From assembly GCA_947584295.1 (NCBI GenBank), contig CANPWM010000009.1, positions 1-52,309 of the forward strand: a stretch of DNA of 52,309 nucleotides, given 5' to 3'. Positions 15,985 to 26,359 of this stretch are shown here, piece after piece. The translations under genes and the position numbers were made by a program. Within the stretch, counting starts at the first letter, position 1. Each line of letters starts with the position of its first letter. Below the pieces are notes generated by a model. It made no database searches. It was given only the letters and a program-made list of their open reading frames with translations, and was not told the origin of the DNA. The DNA comes from an uncultured Oscillospiraceae bacterium (GTDB lineage: Bacteria; Bacillota; Clostridia; Oscillospirales; Oscillospiraceae).

Positions 15985-16334
15985 CGGGTTTTCGTCGGCT
16001 GATTCGTGCCGGAAAGACCCTCGTAAAGCGGCGCGGGGTCAGCTCCCGTCACCTTAAGGTGACGGGAGTCGAGCCCACACCGGTTTTCGCCGGCTGATTT
16101 GCGCCAGTACTTTGTCAAAAGCCTTGACAATACACAAAGTATTCTCTGCGGCTTTTTCCTCGTCCTGACGCAAATCAGCTCGCCGAAAACTGCGTAGCAC
16201 TCCACGCGGAGGATTTTTCGAGGGATTTTCCGTGCGAAGGAGGCAGCCTTGCTGGCGCAAGGCAACGACGACAAGCGGAAAAGCGCCGGAAAGGACCCGC
16301 GTGGAGCGATGTGGGGTCGGCTCCCGTCACCTTA
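15985..16334. repeat. Inverted/direct repeat cluster in the GH13-Spo0A-like spacer
   Basis: About 350 bases without a credible gene. A diverged direct repeat of ~48 bases occurs at 16009-16056 and 16286-16334, each containing GCTCCCGTCACCTTA. The first copy runs into a perfect 26-base palindrome (16043-16068). A large stem-loop has arms at 16083-16103 and 16169-16190, with an inner stem TACTTTGT/ACAAAGTA (16108-16115, 16134-16141). The second direct repeat ends on the stop codon of the Spo0A-like gene. Confidence 0.75.
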
Positions 16335-17075
16335 CACCATTTCCGGCGTTTTGTCAATGCCCCCGGCCAGGACGCGCCCCAGCCGTGAGATGAGGGCGAA
16401 ATTGGCGGGCGTCCTCTCCCAGCCGTCCCCCAGCAGGAGCCTCCGGGCGTAGACGGGCGCGCCGCCCCACCGTTCCCGGACGGCGTAGCGCATATCCCGC
16501 TCCACGCTCCCCGGCGCGGCGCCGCTCTCCTCCCCCAAGGTGACGTAGATCTCCTTGGCGCTGATCCCCCGGCGGGCGGCCATGGGCAGGGCCCTGCGCA
16601 GATATACCTCCCCCGCCAGCGTCCCGGTGAAGCCCAACGTCTCCAACAGGACAGCCGCCGTCTCCTCCGGCGATAAGGCCCCCCGGAGGGCCTCCAGGAA
16701 CCGCTTGCGCTCCCCGGCGGCCTGCCGCGCCGCTCCGGCGATGGCCGCCGCGCCGCCGTCCTTGCCCACTCTCCGGCACCCGGCGGGCATGAACGGCCCT
16801 CCCGGCGTAAAGGTGTCCCCCAGGATCACCGCCGCCGGCACGTCACCGGCGGGCAGGGCGGTCAGGATCTCATAGAGGCCCCGGCACCGGGTGTCCGCCA
16901 GCCTCAACGTGTAGAGCAGAACCGGCGCGGAGAACCGCTCCACGGCCTCCATGGCCCGGGCGCCGTCCCGCTCCGCCGCCAGCACCGTCACGCCGTAGTC
17001 CGGCAGGACCTCCAGCATCAGCTGCCGGAACCAGGCGTTCTCCTCCAAAAGCACCGCTCCAACCGTTTCCCTCAT
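16332..17075 (-). CDS. Spo0A-like protein with degenerate receiver domain
   Basis: 247 residues. The C-terminal half (~135-220) aligns by eye to the Spo0A DNA-binding domain: LLETLGFTGTLAGEVYLRRA, then SAKEIYVTLGEE and the recognition-helix stretch PGSVERDMRYAVRERW. The N-terminal ~120 residues have receiver-like spacing, but the acidic pair is LEEN and the phosphoacceptor Asp position reads LLYTLRL with no Asp. It is therefore probably a phosphorylation-independent regulator or a decayed paralogue. It is not in an operon. The stop codon lies at the edge of a repeat. Confidence is high for the C-terminal domain and moderate for the receiver reading. Confidence 0.8.
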   Translation of the reverse strand: MRETVGAVLLEENAWFRQLMLEVLPDYGVTVLAAERDGARAMEAVERFSAPVLLYTLRLADTRCRGLYEILTALPAGDVPAAVILGDTFTPGGPFMPAGCRRVGKDGGAAAIAGAARQAAGERKRFLEALRGALSPEETAAVLLETLGFTGTLAGEVYLRRALPMAARRGISAKEIYVTLGEESGAAPGSVERDMRYAVRERWGGAPVYARRLLLGDGWERTPANFALISRLGRVLAGGIDKTPEMV

Positions 17076-17190: not shown

Positions 17191-19218
17191 TTATTCGTCG
17201 TCTCCGGCGGCCTTGGCCTCCTCGATGACCTTCTGCTGGACGTTCAGCGGGGCCTCGTCGTAGCGGACGAACTCAAGGGTGAAGGAGCCGCGGCCCTGGG
17301 TCATGCTGCGCAGGTCGATGGCGTAGGAGCCCATTTCAGCCATGGGTACCTCGGCCTCCACCACCTGCATACCGTCCTGGACGCTCATGCCCATGGGGCT
17401 GCCGCGGCGCTTGGACAGGTCGGACATGATGTCGCCCATGTTGGCGTCGGGAATGGTCACCTTCAAAAGCCCGATAGGCTCCAACAGAGCGGGGCTGGCG
17501 TTGACAAGCTCCTTGAAGGCCAGGTTCGCGGCGGTCTTAAAGGCCATTTCGGAGGAGTCAACGGGGTGATAGGAGCCGTCATAGAGGGTGGCCTTCAGAT
17601 AGACCATGGGATACCCGGCCAGAACGCCGCGTCCCACGGACTCCCGCAGGCCCTTCTCCACGGCGGGGAAGAAGTTCTTGGGGACAGCGCCGCCAAAGAC
17701 CTCCTCGCCGAAGATCATCTCCTCGCTCTCGTCCTGCGGCTCGAAGCGGATCCACACGTCGCCGAACTGGCCGTGGCCGCCGGACTGCTTCTTGTGGCGG
17801 CCGTGGGCCTCGATCTTTTTGCGGATCTTCTCGCGGTACGGCACCTTGGCAGGCTCCAGCTCCACGTCCACGCCGAACTTGTTCTTCAACTTGGAGCAAA
17901 GCACGTCGAGCTGCATATCGCCGGCGCCGGAAATGACCATCTGGCGGGTCTCGGCGTTGTTGGTGACGGTGAAGGTCACGTCCTCGTCTCTGAGGCGCGC
18001 CAGGCCCTGGGCCACCTTGTCCTCCTGGCCCTTGGTCTTGGGCTTGATGGCCATGGAGTAGCAGGGCGCCGGGAACTCGATACCGGGAACGGCCTCCACG
18101 GCCTTGGGATCGCACAGGGTATCGCCGGTGCGGGTATCGGTGAGCTTGGAGACGGCGCCGATATCGCCGGGGCAGAGGTCGGCGACCTCGATGTTCTGCT
18201 TGCCGCGCATGGTGTAGATGTGGCCCAGCTTCTCCTGGGCGCCGCTGCGGGCGTTGGTCAGGGTCATATCGGCGGAAACCTTGCCGGAGACCACTTTAAA
18301 GAGGCTGAACTTGCCGAACTGGTCGGAGATGGTCTTGTAGACGATCAGCTTGGTGGGGGCGGAGCCGTCCACGGGCTTGCCGGCCTCACGGGGCGACGGG
18401 AACAGGTTGCACACGCTGTCCATAAAGACCTCGGTGCCAAGGCCGGTGGCGGCGCTGCCAAAGAACACGGGGCAGATCTCCCCCTCGGCGATGCCGATGC
18501 CCAGGGCGTTGAAAAGCTCGCTCTCGGAGAGGTCGCCCTCCTCGAAATATTTCTCCATCAGCTCCTCGCTGGTCCCGGCGGCGTTCTCCACAAGCTCGGA
18601 GTAATGCTCCTCCACCTTGCCGGAAAGCTCGGCGGGCATGGAGACCTCCTGGCGCTTGCCGGAGACGAATTTATAGGCCTTCTTCTTCAGCACGTCCACG
18701 ATGCCCACGACCTTCTCGCCCTCCATAATGGGCTCGGTCAGGGCGCAGACGGAGGAGCCGAAGGCGTTGCGCAGGGTGTCGAATGCCTTTTCAAAGTTGG
18801 CGTGCTCCTCGTCCACCTTGGAGATGTAGATGGCCCGGGGCAGGCTCCTGTCGTTCACATACTTCCACGCCTTCTCCGCGCCCACGTTCATCTGATCCTT
18901 GGCGGAGACGCAGATAACAGCGGTGTCGGCCACCCGCAGGGCCTCGAACACCTCGCCCACAAAGTCGAAGTAGCCCGGGGTGTCGATGATGTTCAGCTTG
19001 TAACCCTTGAACTCGGCGAACATGGTGGTGGCGGAGATACTAGTCTGGCGGCGGATCTCCTCCGCGTCGTAGTCGGAGACGGTATTGCCGCCTCCCACGG
19101 TGCCCTGTCTCGTCACGGCCCCGGCCACAAAGAGCATACTCTCCGCCAGGGTGGTCTTGCCGCTCCCGCCATGGCCAAGGAGCGCGATGTTGCGAATTTT
19201 TTCAGCAGCGTAGCCCAT
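17191..19218 (-). CDS. EF-G-like translational GTPase (EF-G-2 type)
   Basis: 675 residues with the full EF-G domain order. The GTPase domain carries LLGHGGSGKTTLAE as P-loop, DTPGYFDFVGE as switch II and ISKVDEEHANFEKA as G4, instead of the GHIDAGKTT, DTPGHVDF and NKMD motifs of canonical EF-G. Domains II-V follow (SGGHGQFGDVWIRFEP, GMQVVEAEVPMAEM). The PGY in place of PGH removes the usual catalytic His. This is the EF-G-2/FusA-like paralogue found in many Firmicutes and Thermus, not the main EF-G. Its role is unclear, possibly ribosome recycling or stress. It has its own promoter, a hairpin-bearing leader and a terminator. Confidence 0.9.
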   Translation of the reverse strand: MGYAAEKIRNIALLGHGGSGKTTLAESMLFVAGAVTRQGTVGGGNTVSDYDAEEIRRQTSISATTMFAEFKGYKLNIIDTPGYFDFVGEVFEALRVADTAVICVSAKDQMNVGAEKAWKYVNDRSLPRAIYISKVDEEHANFEKAFDTLRNAFGSSVCALTEPIMEGEKVVGIVDVLKKKAYKFVSGKRQEVSMPAELSGKVEEHYSELVENAAGTSEELMEKYFEEGDLSESELFNALGIGIAEGEICPVFFGSAATGLGTEVFMDSVCNLFPSPREAGKPVDGSAPTKLIVYKTISDQFGKFSLFKVVSGKVSADMTLTNARSGAQEKLGHIYTMRGKQNIEVADLCPGDIGAVSKLTDTRTGDTLCDPKAVEAVPGIEFPAPCYSMAIKPKTKGQEDKVAQGLARLRDEDVTFTVTNNAETRQMVISGAGDMQLDVLCSKLKNKFGVDVELEPAKVPYREKIRKKIEAHGRHKKQSGGHGQFGDVWIRFEPQDESEEMIFGEEVFGGAVPKNFFPAVEKGLRESVGRGVLAGYPMVYLKATLYDGSYHPVDSSEMAFKTAANLAFKELVNASPALLEPIGLLKVTIPDANMGDIMSDLSKRRGSPMGMSVQDGMQVVEAEVPMAEMGSYAIDLRSMTQGRGSFTLEFVRYDEAPLNVQQKVIEEAKAAGDDE

Positions 19219-19249
19219 AGATGTATGATCCTCTCGTAATTTTAGTTGA

Positions 19250-19343
19250 GCGGCTCAGGGCGGCAAAAGCCCCCCTGAGTCACATTGTCGGCAATAAAGC
19301 CCGTCTAAAGACTCATTATAATACAGTTTGACTGAAATGACAA
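19250..19343 (-). promoter_or_regulatory. Promoter and hairpin leader of the EF-G-like gene
   Basis: Minus strand TTGTCA (19338-19343), 17-base spacer, TATAAT (19315-19320). The ~95-base leader contains a stem CTCAGGG/CCCTGAG closed by GGC/GCC (about 19253-19280) ahead of the ribosome site. It may be regulatory, or only a stabilising hairpin. Confidence 0.7.
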
Positions 19344-19397
19344 TATTTATTTTCTGTTTTTTGGGGATTTTTCTCTCACGCCCCGGAAATCCGCCGG

Positions 19398-22034
19398 TCA
19401 TTTGATCCTTTTCTTCACGATCTGGCTCATTATGTAAACAAACGCGCTCACCAGGGACATATAGAAAAGGATATTGAGGGCGCTGGCGGCGGCGAAGGCC
19501 CCGGCCCAGCACAGGTAGAACATGACCACGGCCCCGATGACCGTCCCGGCGCAGGTGATGGCCGTATTCAGCAGGGTGGCCGTCCTCAAGAGCCTGCCCC
19601 GGGTGATGACCTCGGCGAAGGGGGCCAGCCCGCCCCGGCACAGCACGGCGGAGACGCCGCTGCCCTCGGGCAGCTCGTTCTGGCTCAGGGCGTAGGTGGT
19701 CTCGATGGGCAGGTACTCCACCCCGTCCATGGACACCTTGAACCGCTGGGCGATGGTGTTGGGGGTCACGTTGAAGTCCCGCACCGCCATCAGGATATTC
19801 GTCCTGGTCCCCAGCAGGGCCACCAGGGCCGACTGCACGGAGCTGGCCGGCACATAGGACAGAGTAAAGACGCACACAAGCTCATCGTCGATGGCGGCGA
19901 ACACGTTCCCGGCGGTGTTCATGGCATCCGGCACCCGCAGGCCCATCAGGCTCATAAAGGCCCCGGTACCCACCAGCACCCGCTGGCCGTCCACCAGGCC
20001 CCCGATGCCGCCGCCGTCATAGCAGGCGAAATCGTCCACCCGGCGGCGGGCCAGGTTCTGATTCTTCAAAAGCTCCTCAAACACCCGCCGGAGGCCGGAA
20101 TCCGAGGTGATGATCACCGACGCGGCGGTGGACAGCACCTTCTGTTGATCGACCCCCTCGAACATCTTCACCCCCTCCAGCTTCACGCTGCCCACGGGGA
20201 ACACGTCAAGATCCGTGATCAGCGCGCCGTCGGAGTCGTAGATGTCCTGGGCGCCTGCCCAACCGGCCAGGGCCGCGCCGGAGCGTTTCACGGCGGCGGC
20301 GGCGTATTTGAAGGGCAGGGCGAACAGCACCGTGGCCGGGAAGGCCGCGCACACGGCGGTCATGATGGAGAACGCATGGGCAAAGCCCCCGGCGTTGTTG
20401 TGTCCTACGGTGGACAGGAACGCCATCACAAAGGAGACGATCACCAGCAGCGGCGCCAGGTCGTCGTAAAACCGCTCGGCCATATCCGGGCTTGTGAGCT
20501 TGGCGTAGAAGCCGAAGGTCTCCCCGGACACCTTTTTCAGCACCCTGCGGCCCTCCATGCCGTCGGCGTCGGAGGCGACGCCGGAGATATTGGAGGAGGC
20601 CCTGGCCCCCCGCAGGCTGTCGCAGTAGGCCATATACATGGACTTTCTGGCGCTCAGGGCCGACATCAGGGAGATCACCGACAGCACCGCCATGGGCAGT
20701 CCCCGCCCGTAGTTGCCGGTGACCAGCATCACAAAGCCGTCCATTACCGACATGAGCGTGGAGACGAACACCAGCGACTCCGCCCCCGGCTGGAGGGTCA
20801 GGATATCCTGGAACCCCCGGGTCAGCACGTCCATGCCCAGGGCGGCGGCCAGCAGCTCCATGATGAGCAGGGCGGCGGTGTTGGCCCTCCCGGTGTGGCC
20901 GATCAGGGGCATGGCGCGGCCCGCCGTGAACAGCCAGGTGGTGAGGATCATCAACGCCGACAGGATAAAGAGGCCCAACAGCCTGAACCGCAGGGACGGC
21001 ACCCGGGCGGCGTAGCGCATGGCCGTCCGCTTGAAGTCGGGATCCGGCTCTATGTCGTAGTAGTAGTCGTCCTCTTCCTCTTCCGCCTCTTCTTCCCCGT
21101 CCCAGCCGTCATAGTCCTCCGGGGCGTCGTCCTCATAGCCGTCCTCCTCGTCGGGCAGGGCGGCCCGGGCGTTCTCTCTCTTGGAGCGCCTTCCGAAAAG
21201 GCCCCGGCGGCGCTCCTGGCGGGGTTCCTCCCCGCCGTCAAGATCCTCCGGCTCCCCGGCGTCCTCCTCCGGCTCCTCAAGCTCCCGGAAGTCCCCGGCG
21301 CTCCACCCGGCGTACCCGGCGTTGTCGTCCCGGGCCTCCACCGGCGTATCAAAACCGGCCCCGCCCAGGGAATTGATGAATTTCTCGATGCCCTCCCGCC
21401 GTGTCTCCGGCTCCTCCGGCTCGTCAAAAACGGAGATGTCGATCTCCGGGGCCTCCTCATAGGCCGGTTCCGCCTTTCGGTCGGATCCCCGGCGCGGCGA
21501 CGTCTCCCGTAAAGCCGCGTCCCGCTCCCCGTCCTCCGGGGCGGGCTGCTCCCGCTCCCTCTTCCGGCCAAAGAACCCCCGGCGGGATTCCTCCTCCGGC
21601 GCAGGCTCCGGCGCAAAGGTCTCCGGGGCAAAGGACATCTTTTCCGCCTTCGGGGCAAAGGACATCTTCTCCGGCTCCGGGGCCGGCTCCTCCGGCGCGG
21701 GGGCCGGGGCCTTGTCCCGGGCGCGGTTCAGGCTCTCAAAGGCGGGGGAGTCAAAGAGCCTGCGGATATCCTCGTCGGTCACCGGCTCCGGATCGCTCTT
21801 TTCCGGCTCCTCCGGGCGCGGGACGGCGGAAGCCGCCGGGGCCTTCTCCCCCAGGACTTCCCGCAGGATATCGTCTGTCTTGCGCTGCAGCTCCTCCGCC
21901 GGGGTCTTTTTGTCCCCGTCCAAAAAGGCGCTGCCCTTGTACTCGGCCAGAATGGACTCCAGGGAGAAGCCCTCCTCCGCGCCGTAGTCGCCCGACAGAT
22001 CCAGATCGTCCCAAAAATTCTTGTCATTTGCCAT
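19398..22034 (-). CDS. Degenerate P-type-ATPase-like membrane protein with acidic N-terminal extension
   Basis: 878 residues. Residues 1-335 are a low-complexity Glu/Pro/Asp-rich region with a duplicated EKMSFAP, ending in an acidic stretch. About eight membrane helices (~350-580 and 817-869) then follow the layout of P1B ATPases. The loop at 577-815 resembles P and N domains: IYDSDGALITD at the DKTGTLT position, GGGIGGLVDGQRVLVGTGAFM like the nucleotide-domain GxG and VGN region, and LMAVRDFN at the TGDN position. The GDGxND hinge is absent, and the actuator loop is only ~65 residues. The membrane CPC motif reads CAAFP. It is therefore probably not an ion-pumping ATPase. The ATG has AAGGAGGG upstream. 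Confidence 0.8.
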   Translation of the reverse strand: MANDKNFWDDLDLSGDYGAEEGFSLESILAEYKGSAFLDGDKKTPAEELQRKTDDILREVLGEKAPAASAVPRPEEPEKSDPEPVTDEDIRRLFDSPAFESLNRARDKAPAPAPEEPAPEPEKMSFAPKAEKMSFAPETFAPEPAPEEESRRGFFGRKREREQPAPEDGERDAALRETSPRRGSDRKAEPAYEEAPEIDISVFDEPEEPETRREGIEKFINSLGGAGFDTPVEARDDNAGYAGWSAGDFRELEEPEEDAGEPEDLDGGEEPRQERRRGLFGRRSKRENARAALPDEEDGYEDDAPEDYDGWDGEEEAEEEEDDYYYDIEPDPDFKRTAMRYAARVPSLRFRLLGLFILSALMILTTWLFTAGRAMPLIGHTGRANTAALLIMELLAAALGMDVLTRGFQDILTLQPGAESLVFVSTLMSVMDGFVMLVTGNYGRGLPMAVLSVISLMSALSARKSMYMAYCDSLRGARASSNISGVASDADGMEGRRVLKKVSGETFGFYAKLTSPDMAERFYDDLAPLLVIVSFVMAFLSTVGHNNAGGFAHAFSIMTAVCAAFPATVLFALPFKYAAAAVKRSGAALAGWAGAQDIYDSDGALITDLDVFPVGSVKLEGVKMFEGVDQQKVLSTAASVIITSDSGLRRVFEELLKNQNLARRRVDDFACYDGGGIGGLVDGQRVLVGTGAFMSLMGLRVPDAMNTAGNVFAAIDDELVCVFTLSYVPASSVQSALVALLGTRTNILMAVRDFNVTPNTIAQRFKVSMDGVEYLPIETTYALSQNELPEGSGVSAVLCRGGLAPFAEVITRGRLLRTATLLNTAITCAGTVIGAVVMFYLCWAGAFAAASALNILFYMSLVSAFVYIMSQIVKKRIK

Positions 22035-22129
22035 GCGCGAACCCTCCTTGTCGCCGGGTTTTGCAGTCTTTCAAGAGGTAGTGTCTATCTTTATCTCTTT
22101 TATCTATTTATCTTATCAAAACCTGGGTA

Positions 22130-22950
22130 TCATCGGTCAAAGCCCCTCTGCCGCGCCGCCTCGTACAGCACGATGGCCGCGCTGGCGGAGGCGTTCAGGG
22201 AGGAGATACGGCCCCTCATGGGGATCGAAAGGGTGAAGTCGCAGCTCTCCGCCACCAACTTCCTCATGCCCTCCCCCTCGGAGCCGATGACCAGCGCCAT
22301 GGGGCCGCGGAGATCCGTCTCATAGAGGCTCTTTTCCGCCTCCGCCGCGGTGCCGTAGATCCACACCCCGGCGTCCTGAAGCTCCCTGATGGCGGCGGCC
22401 AGGTTGGGTACCCGCGCCACGCGCATATACTCCACCGCCCCGGCGGAGGTCTTGGCCACCACCGCCGTCAGCGCGGCGCTGCGCCGCTTGGGAATGATCA
22501 CCCCATGGGCGCCCACGCACTCGGCGGTGCGGATAATGGCCCCTAAATTGTGTCCGTCGGAGACTTCGTCGCACAGGACGATCAGCGGGGCCTCGCCCCG
22601 CTCCCGGGCGTAGTCCAAAATGTCCCGGACGGTGCAGTAGTCCTTGACGGCGGCCAGGGCCACGATGCCCTGATGCGCCCCGGTGACGCTCATGGAGTCA
22701 AGCTTTCGCCTGTCCACCTCCACCACCACGGCCCCGGCGTCCCTGGCCTGGGCGGCCAGCCGCCGAAGGCCCGCGTCGGTATCCCCGGCGGCGATGAACA
22801 CCTTGTTCAGCGTCCTGCCGGCCTTCAGCGCCTCGTTGACGGCGTTCCGGCCCTCCAGACAGCTCTCCTCCCGCTCCTGCTCCCGGTCCTCTGGAGCCGT
22901 CCGGGCGGGGGGCCTTTTGTAGTCCCTATAAGGGATCCTCCTGTTTTCCA

Positions 22951-24363: not shown

Positions 24364-25245
24364 GTGAAGGCCGTTGACCGCGCCGTTACAAAATTCTGCT
24401 ATAAGCACCCCAATTTCGGCATCCGCAATCTGATGCTGTATCTTGTGGCCGCCAGCGGGATCTTCTATGTCTTTTACATGATGGATACCACCGGCTCGCT
24501 GATGTCCTACATCACCTTCAACCCCGCCATGATCCTGCGGGGGCAGGTGTGGAGGATCTTCACCTTCCTGCTGATGCCCATCGGGGACAACATCTTCTTT
24601 GAGGTCTTGGCCCTCTACTTCTACTACTTCATCGGCTCCAGCCTGGAGCGCCAGTGGGGTGCGGCCCGCTTCACCATCTACTACCTCAGCGGGATCCTGT
24701 TCAACGTCCTCTACGGCGTTGTCATCTACCTGATCCTGCTCCCCACCATGGGGCCCGCGGCCGGGTCTTTCGTGGGCTTCTCCATGAACGCCTCCTACCT
24801 GAACCTGAGTATGTTCTTCGCCTTCGCCTGCATCTGGCCCGACGCCCAGGTGCTGCTGTTCTTCTTCATTCCCGTGAAGATGAAGTGGCTGGCGTGGCTG
24901 GACGCGGCCTTCTTCCTCCTGTCCATTCTCCAGGGCATGAGCGTCTTCCCCATGAACCTGCTGCCCGTGGTGGCGATCCTCAACTTCTTCCTCTTCTGCT
25001 GGGGCAACCTGAACCTGAACTTCAAGCGTGACCGGGGCTACGCCAAGCGCCGCACCCAGTTCAAGTCCGCTATCCACCAGGCCAAGGACGGGGAGCGTAT
25101 GCAGGGCTACCGCCATAAATGCGAGGTCTGCGGCCGCACCGACGTGTCCGACCCCGACCTGGAGTTCCGCTACTGCTCCCGTTGCCAGGGCTACCACTGC
25201 TACTGCGCCGACCACATCAACACCCATATCCACCACACGGAGTGA
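24364..25245 (+). CDS. Rhomboid/derlin-like membrane protein with C-terminal zinc ribbon
   Basis: 293 residues. Five to six membrane segments in rhomboid style: ILRGQVWRIFTFLLMP, then YFIGSSLERQWGAARFTIYY, as in the rhomboid L1 loop and helix 2. The catalytic GxSG of helix 4 is not found; the corresponding stretch reads GFSMNASYLNLSMFF. The cytoplasmic tail (residues ~255-293) has HKCEVCGRTD, YCSRCQGYHCYCADH and a terminal HIHH, giving two probable zinc sites. It is likely a proteolytically inactive rhomboid relative that binds proteins or metal. The GTG start has GAGGTGAG upstream. It is monocistronic and divergent from metK. Confidence 0.78.
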   Translation: MKAVDRAVTKFCYKHPNFGIRNLMLYLVAASGIFYVFYMMDTTGSLMSYITFNPAMILRGQVWRIFTFLLMPIGDNIFFEVLALYFYYFIGSSLERQWGAARFTIYYLSGILFNVLYGVVIYLILLPTMGPAAGSFVGFSMNASYLNLSMFFAFACIWPDAQVLLFFFIPVKMKWLAWLDAAFFLLSILQGMSVFPMNLLPVVAILNFFLFCWGNLNLNFKRDRGYAKRRTQFKSAIHQAKDGERMQGYRHKCEVCGRTDVSDPDLEFRYCSRCQGYHCYCADHINTHIHHTE

Positions 25246-25465: not shown

Positions 25466-26359
25466 TCACTGCTTTGACCGGGCTTTTCCGCTCAGATGGG
25501 CGACGGTCAGCTCCAGGACGGCGGCGGCGTTGATATCCGCGTCGATATACCTCTCCCGGTTCTCCGGGGCGTCGGCGGGGGCGTATTTCCGCCCCAGGAG
25601 CCGGAGGGCGGCGCGCTTCTCCGCCTCGTCCGTCACCTCCCGGACAAGGCCCGCGGCGATGACGCTGCGGTAGTCGGTGGTGTACTGCTCCGGGATCACC
25701 CGATCCCGGGCCGTGACGCAGAAGGAGGCCCGGGGATCCCGCCGCAGGGCGTCCAGCTTATGGCCGCTCTTAGCGCCGTGGAAGTAGAGCTTCCCCTCCC
25801 GGTAGACGTAGCTCAGCGGCACCCCGTAGGGCCAGCCGCCGTCCCCGCGCAGGGACAGCACGCCGTTACTGCCGTCTAAAAGGATCTTTTCGCACTGCTC
25901 TCTTGTCAGCTCCCGGTCACGCCGCCGCAGGGGCCGGGCAGGCGTAAGCTCCGGGTGGACGTTCAAAAAGCCGTCCGCCGCCAGCAAGGTCTCCCGGTCG
26001 GAGCGGTGGGTCAGCTTCACCAAGGCGGAGGGGAGCGCGGCCCACTCGATGGAGGCCACCTCCTCCGGCTGGGCCGTCACATCCATGGCGTCCGCCCGAG
26101 CCAGGAAGAAGATTACGTCCTTCAGGCACCCCTCATAGGGGGAGTAGCGGATTGTCCTGGAGAATCCGTCCAGGAACGTGACCTCCAGGGCCGTCTCCTC
26201 CCGGATCTCCCGGGCGGCCGTCTCATGCTCCGTCTCGTTGCCCTCCACATGGCCCTTGCACAAGGACGTGTGGCCCTTTTTCATATGCTCCAGAAGGTAG
26301 AGCCGCTCCCCCCGGTCGATGGCGAAGATCACCGCGCCGCAGCTTTTTTCCAGTTTCAT
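25466..26359 (-). CDS. Nudix hydrolase fused to a pyridoxamine-5'-phosphate-oxidase-like (flavin) domain
   Basis: 297 residues. The N-terminal Nudix domain (~1-135) has an almost complete Nudix box (GHVEGNETEHETAAREIREE), with Ala in place of the last Gly. A linker follows. The C-terminal domain (~150-290) is a PNPOx-like split barrel: REQCEKILLDGSNGVLSLRG, PYGVPLSYVYREGKLYFHGA and SGHKLDALRRDPRASFCV, as in NimA/FMN-binding proteins. Substrates are unknown. The combination suggests one protein that sanitises nucleotides and binds flavin. It lies nine bases upstream of the fRMsr gene on the same strand order, so both may respond to oxidative damage. Confidence 0.85.
   Translation of the reverse strand: MKLEKSCGAVIFAIDRGERLYLLEHMKKGHTSLCKGHVEGNETEHETAAREIREETALEVTFLDGFSRTIRYSPYEGCLKDVIFFLARADAMDVTAQPEEVASIEWAALPSALVKLTHRSDRETLLAADGFLNVHPELTPARPLRRRDRELTREQCEKILLDGSNGVLSLRGDGGWPYGVPLSYVYREGKLYFHGAKSGHKLDALRRDPRASFCVTARDRVIPEQYTTDYRSVIAAGLVREVTDEAEKRAALRLLGRKYAPADAPENRERYIDADINAAAVLELTVAHLSGKARSKQ

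Follow-up and report, generated by a model that had tools for sequence, protein, structure and literature searches.

A conserved P1B-type ATPase homologue without the pump motifs in an Oscillospiraceae bacterium and its order

P-type ATPases are generally treated as pumps, and their Post-Albers cycle depends on the phospho-Asp, the Thr of TGD, a Lys, GDGxND and TGE. Among published proteins that have the P-type shape but no measured activity, the nearest that we came across is human TMEM94. According to the accessible part of one study it is built like a P-type ATPase although TGES is missing, ATPase activity was not detected there, and it possesses ten transmembrane (TM) segments and is closest to SPCA among known P-type ATPases (PMC12134183). 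Its status is disputed, as far as the available text of another report goes (PMC13322241). A bacterial pseudo-P-type ATPase was not among the literature matches listed; subscription papers lay mostly outside the search, so that this is a weak negative.

Here we describe a gene from a 52,309-nucleotide stretch of an uncultured Oscillospiraceae bacterium (the window). Reading of the open frames gave one intact frame for it (Table 1), and the protein together with its homologues is referred to below as family A.

P1B ancestry and the altered motifs

Taken alone, the window protein gave marginal matches to the ZntA-type model of NCBIfam (E 0.015) and to the CopA structure 3rfu in the PDB (E 0.01). 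It had no match at E 1 in Pfam or in PHROGs, and its best NCBIfam score of 13.7 bits was below the curated cut-off of 1005. Five further members yielded one Pfam match, under its cut-off, and two single members reached the P1B model TIGR01525 with E-values of 5.3e-7 and 4.0e-4. With the family profile, 3rfu (CopA) was retrieved from the PDB at E 5.6e-12, 8q75 at 2.1e-8 and 7qbz at 6.3e-7, and HHalign aligned the family to genuine P1B ATPases of related genomes with 99.8% over 510 columns, the E-value being that for one comparison. On the basis of these two profile results the ancestry is firm, and family A is to be regarded as a descendant of P1B metal ATPases.

The membrane layout is in accordance with this origin. 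Hydropathy averaged over 46 family rows displays eight main TM-like segments; they follow the 4+2+2 grouping of P1B pumps and are accompanied by a weak extra peak at residues 710–728 and two shoulders. Combined with the profile alignment, the P1B arrangement with eight TM segments, the A loop after TM4 and the P and N domains after TM6 is recovered. This layout had been proposed in an earlier note made from the letters of this DNA, as had a recognisable nucleotide-domain segment, GGGIGGLVDGQRVLVGTGAFM, which indeed aligns with the P1B N-domain region. Conservation was counted over 97 non-redundant family A rows, from which the window copy (L001) and rows more than 95% identical had been dropped; by this count the Pro at the end of TM6, P574, is kept in 87/97 rows.

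Table 1. Features of the family A gene and its neighbours in the window (residue numbers are those of the window protein)
Feature	Position	Strand	Remarks
P1B-type ATPase homologue, family A, presumably dead	19398..22034	-	878 aa; profile and HHalign evidence
rlmB, SpoU 23S rRNA 2'-O-methyltransferase	22130..22918	-	start codon not certain; 95 nt upstream
EF-G-like GTPase	17191..19218	-	downstream of family A gene; promoter-like site before the EF-G-like gene
N-terminal motif FSLESILAEYK, residues 23-33	21936..21968	-	I28 in 87/97, E31 in 85/97 rows
Acidic, Pro-rich, fast-evolving linker, residues 71-330	21045..21824	-	EKMSFAP at residues 122 and 131
First membrane block, four TM-like segments	20637..21008	-	hydropathy peaks 352-370, 387-405, 420-438, 444-462
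Shortened actuator loop, residues 463-525	20460..20648	-	59-76 residues across the family
TM-like segments 5 and 6	20289..20483	-	hydropathy; CPC position is A563-A564-F565
DSDGA, residues 600-604	20223..20237	-	not the DKTGT counterpart; seven residues upstream of it
DKTGT counterpart T607-D608-L609-D610-V611, then F612-P613	20196..20216	-	9/9 HHalign settings
GGGIGG, P1B N-domain GxG segment	19998..20015	-	alignment to 3rfu and 3sky/3skx; G676 in 96/97 rows
TGD counterpart V751-R752-D753, then F-N-V-T	19764..19784	-	9/9 HHalign settings
LPIET (Lys of LPxxK is T779) and stretch expected to hold GDGxND	19638..19712	-	HHalign
TM-like segments 7 and 8	19410..19592	-	hydropathy

The register of the catalytic motifs was obtained from profile–profile HHalign comparisons at nine settings, parsed by script. 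In this register T607 stands at the position of the phospho-Asp, and the near-invariant D608 lies one residue off, a placement which carries one residue of doubt. D608 as the exact phospho-Asp was dropped after the scripted parse. The earlier note had read DKTGT as DSDGA with its Asp kept. DSDGA is ruled out as the altered motif by the position of the DKTGT counterpart (Table 1), its D600 is poorly conserved (34/86 rows at 30% identity or above, 5/41 below), and retention of the Asp is not borne out since the in-register residue is T607. DKTG occurs at the motif position in 0/128 family A rows; three rows hold these letters in the head.

The remaining motif readings of that note agree with the alignments, so that its observations are partly confirmed. 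VRDF stands for TGDN, and CAAFP contains the CPC counterpart, which consists of small or hydrophobic residues in all nine settings. The Lys of LPxxK likewise falls on T779 in each of the nine. GDGxND is gone; it is found in 0/128 family A rows and is faced in HHalign by gaps or unrelated letters. With about 64 residues the actuator loop of the window protein is around half as long as that of a genuine P1B ATPase (roughly 140, read by eye off the alignment). The TGES of genuine P1Bs faces a gap in family A; an SGE/TGE-like triplet near residue 503 was seen by eye in some close relatives only, and TGES in L005 and L054. SEHP is replaced by S-D-S-G in the six settings whose template holds it, HP corresponding to S646-G647. 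In total, DKTGT, TGE, GDGxND, CPC and HP, the motifs of a functional pump, are each missing from the window protein. With phospho-Asp, TGD Thr, Lys, GDGxND and TGE all lost, a Post-Albers cycle is not expected in family A.

The altered sites are themselves highly conserved. D608 and D610 are present in 89 rows each, F612 in 90, P613 in 91 and G676 in 96; in RDFNxT, D753 is found in 96, N755 in 95 and T757 in 91 rows, counts which are biased upward for residues 749–757 because the scan pattern [MLF]A[VAL][RK]DFN[VI]T kept 80 of 97 relatives. D608 is substituted by Glu (5), Ser (2) or Ala (1), D610 by Glu (6), Tyr (1) or Leu (1). D608xD610xFP, RDFNxT and the N-terminal motif FSLESILAEYK are thus conserved in their altered form, and this conservation means that the site was changed and then kept rather than left decaying. 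Being common to an order-wide family, the motif changes exceed what chance would give. In six pairs with the window protein, dN/dS was 0.10–0.30 for the core, 0.04–0.25 for the first 70 residues and 0.39–0.46 for residues 71–330. The dN/dS check proposed in that note therefore speaks for a protein maintained by selection: the gene is not a pseudogene, and its core is under purifying selection. P121, seemingly conserved in 91/97 rows, was left unused, its count being attributed to misalignment within the low-complexity head.

Position behind rlmB and distribution across the order

In the window metK lies upstream of rlmB. A pattern scan of positions 18900–22400 revealed minus-strand promoter-like sites before the EF-G gene only (11/12 and 9/12 matches) and none in the interval between rlmB and the family A gene. 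As no such site separates them, the two genes may share a transcript, judging from pattern matches. An Rfam scan of the window gave no match. Three other frames of the window were recorded: a NUDIX domain and a pyridoxamine 5'-phosphate oxidase-like domain in one frame (25466–26359, minus strand), an apparent fusion; a short protein downstream of the EF-G-like gene (16332–17075, minus strand) with a weak match to the Spo0A C-terminal domain (26.2 bits, cut-off 25); and a rhomboid-like membrane protein (24364–25245, plus strand) with 18.9 bits, below the Pfam cut-off of 22.6. A rhomboid-like gene occurs upstream on the opposite strand in 52/127 family A loci.

Sixty genomes of relatives were scanned, 34 of the genus, 3 more of the family and 23 more of the order. 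Family A was present in 57, of which 55 had the gene read at the locus and two (G008, G018) contained fragments. As for the other three, the contig ends in G040, and G028 and G033 are without an rlmB over the cut-off; since rlmB is missing as well, these two may have an assembly gap or may have lost both genes together. Sporobacter termitidis DSM 10068 and Papillibacter cinnamivorans DSM 12816 are named carriers. rlmB lies upstream on the same strand in 125/127 loci (in L035 a different gene takes this place, and L106 begins within the gene), and EF-G lies downstream in 94 of the 127, being absent in several deep members. These 127 loci mix two collections with some organisms represented twice (for instance L032 and L086); L016, L067 and L130, where the automatic ORF step gave no family A frame, are outside the set. 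In two genomes (L039, L332) family A appears as two consecutive frames, either an assembly error or a real split.

In a survey of the class, 216/245 genomes matched at E 1e-5. The nine genomes of the order among them scored 98–741 bits, and the best match outside the order had 80.9 bits. Twenty of the 21 outside-order loci fetched (L204–L224) contain DKTG, GDGxND and TGE in one frame and the remaining one (L210) DKTGT and GDGxND, so that these are, by their motifs, genuine P1Bs. At 30 outside-order rlmB loci a search at E 10 gave no family A match among the ORFs following rlmB; the stretch covered was 1,500 nt at most, and much less for L309 and L315. The next ORFs after rlmB outside the order (L288–L317) are often NYN-like and then sigma-factor-like, as named by eye, which suggests that the presumed dead pump sits in a slot that differs in other orders. 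A clear family A member outside the order was not seen in the 245 class genomes, the 21 fetched loci and the 30 rlmB loci, and the family was probably fixed behind rlmB at or near the base of the order.

The acidic head and a second, presumably dead pump in the genus

The head of some 335 residues described in the earlier note is indeed acidic, 99 of the first 330 residues being D or E. Its length is no fixed trait, since across family A it ranges from 0 (cut rows included) to 638 residues with a median of 270. The duplicated EKMSFAP, to which that note had drawn attention, exists in the window protein and was rejected as a meaningful feature, being absent from 45/45 other family proteins examined.

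The genus carries another P1B pump, presumably dead as well, whose N-terminal motif resembles that of family A; it is new here and is termed family B. In the genome of the window (G000) it is a 683-residue P1B relative on contig 33 (22395–24446, minus strand; L225:2396–4447) that reaches 178 bits against TIGR01525 (cut-off 346). FNKSGT, TGDN and SEHP are present in this protein and GDGxND is absent. Over 26 family B rows, the phospho-Asp position (FNK[ST]GT) is occupied by Asn in 21, Ser in 4 and Asp in 1; TGDN and the His of HP are kept in 26/26, GDGxND is found in 0/26, and the letters TGE occur somewhere in the sequence in 6/26. Four of the 30 family B loci (L236, L240, L258, L262) had no frame after the filter and are outside these rows. 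At 400 bits or above, family B was detected in 29/34 genomes of the genus and in 0/26 others, where the best score was 282 bits. An aldolase-like gene precedes it in 6/9 loci inspected by eye.

A regular expression for the N-terminal motif matched 74/97 family A heads (shuffle mean 0.38) and 15/26 family B heads (shuffle mean 0.08), leaving 23 and 11 heads without it; the expression was devised with the motif already in view, and it was applied to rows that are related to each other. In G000 a pattern for the motif has two matches, the family A gene and the family B gene. An earlier pattern lacking the leading Ser/Thr gave four in the same genome, the window gene and three unrelated places, and missed family B. 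With a looser pattern, 43 places were found in eight genomes compared to 28 for the reversed control. Thirty of these places were fetched and 17 had a resolved frame; only three lay in the first 50 residues, all of them in family B.

HHalign scored A against B with 77; against the longer and the shorter set of genuine P1Bs, A scored 213/138 and B 503/557. These profile scores hint at separate origins of the two families. In a tree of 14 A, 10 B and 40 genuine P1B sequences, A and B form one clade each, and family A is separated from the P1Bs by branch lengths of 2.0 and 1.29, one on either side of the midpoint root. A single clade of A and B was not rejected (p-AU 0.21), so that the head may be inherited instead of gained twice.

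Function of family A and comparison with known systems

The reading we favour, and consider probable on the sequence evidence, is that family A is a conserved pseudoenzyme, a pseudo-pump derived from P1B ATPases that serves as a membrane platform or sensor. It is preferred because the cycle motifs are gone, whereas the membrane body has stayed, together with the GxG of the N domain, an altered acidic site and the N-terminal motif. An ancient P1B ATPase would have retained its membrane body and N/P head and lost the phosphorylation–dephosphorylation cycle. The long acidic N-terminal arm would display FSLESILAEYK, which is probably helical, for docking of a cytosolic partner, and a ligand, for instance a nucleotide or Mg2+, may be bound without turnover by the altered N/P head (D608xD610, RDFNxT, GGGIG). 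Families A and B may address the same partner, as they share the genus and a similar motif. The neighbours rlmB, EF-G and metK give a weak hint towards translation. A bolder extension, which we put forward tentatively and would sooner doubt than accept, is that the order invented pseudo-pumps, perhaps twice, as ligand-gated platforms with a shared docking motif and one common cytosolic partner.

Several other explanations were weighed. A dead regulatory subunit that would associate with an active ATPase of the CopA or ZntA type in its own cell and modulate it is unlikely, even though the genome, and the genus too, contains genuine P1Bs in which DKTGT and GDGxND are intact. Dead-paralogue activators of live partners, described for other enzyme families in the accessible part of the source (PMC5201418), offer a precedent. 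Against this role stand the conserved neighbours metK, rlmB and EF-G, which are not metal genes, the loss of the CPC metal site and the long branches that separate family A from the P1Bs. HAD phosphatases are characterised by a DxD motif, and D608xD610 could be motif I of a repurposed HAD hydrolase whose P domain cleaves a phosphorylated substrate at the membrane. The strong conservation of D608xD610 and D753 would also suit some remaining chemistry. D608xD610 is, however, one residue out of register with DKTGT in 9/9 settings, D608 is replaced in 8/97 rows, and the HAD Thr (V751), Lys (T779) and acidic motif IV (GDGxND) have no counterpart, which weakens the phosphatase option; we hold it to be rather improbable. 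The earlier note had argued for it from a DxDG context that involves the wrong residues, the nearby DxD being D608xD610.

Very unlikely is a passive transporter, in which the unphosphorylated membrane block acts as an uncoupled channel or carrier. Eight TM-like segments and P574 are kept, but the CPC site has given way to small or hydrophobic residues, and the conserved N/P head and N-terminal motif would be left unexplained. For a decaying pseudogene or an assembly error, to which the genes split into two frames at L039 and L332 might point, the chance is negligible. The open frame and the core dN/dS contradict decay; the members listed are free of stops except G043 (one TAA), and the gene is present order-wide, including both named strains. 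Close relatives with an intact DKTGT, named in the earlier note as a sign of decay, were not found among the 128 rows.

The platform or sensor reading takes up one part of what that note had suggested, namely a pump turned into something else, which is well supported: P1B ancestry is firm, the catalytic motifs are replaced family-wide and the protein is under selection. Its interpretation is partly supported, and of its options a sensor or scaffold appears to be the best remaining one. If this holds, an order-wide, selected and emptied P1B family, together with a second one in the genus that carries a similar tag, would allow roles of P-type ATPases beyond transport to be tested in the two named strains, and annotators would be warned not to call such genes transporters.

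As far as the accessible literature describes TMEM94, it shares with family A the P-type layout without TGES; it differs in being eukaryotic, with ten TM segments, and in belonging to another branch, not P1B. Family B resembles family A as a dead P1B with an acidic head and a similar N-terminal motif in the same genus. Unlike A, it has retained TGDN, the His of HP and the Lys of motif III, and Asn mostly replaces its phospho-Asp. With the P1B ATPases themselves (CopA 3rfu, ZntA-type 7qbz, HMA4 8q75) family A shares the 8-TM layout, the domain order and the N-domain GxG. It departs from them by the lack of DKTGT, TGE, GDGxND, CPC and HP and by a half-size actuator loop, and it has in addition a long acidic head, a short motif and a fixed place beside rlmB. 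Judged by these features, family A is homologous to the P1B ATPases without belonging to them functionally.
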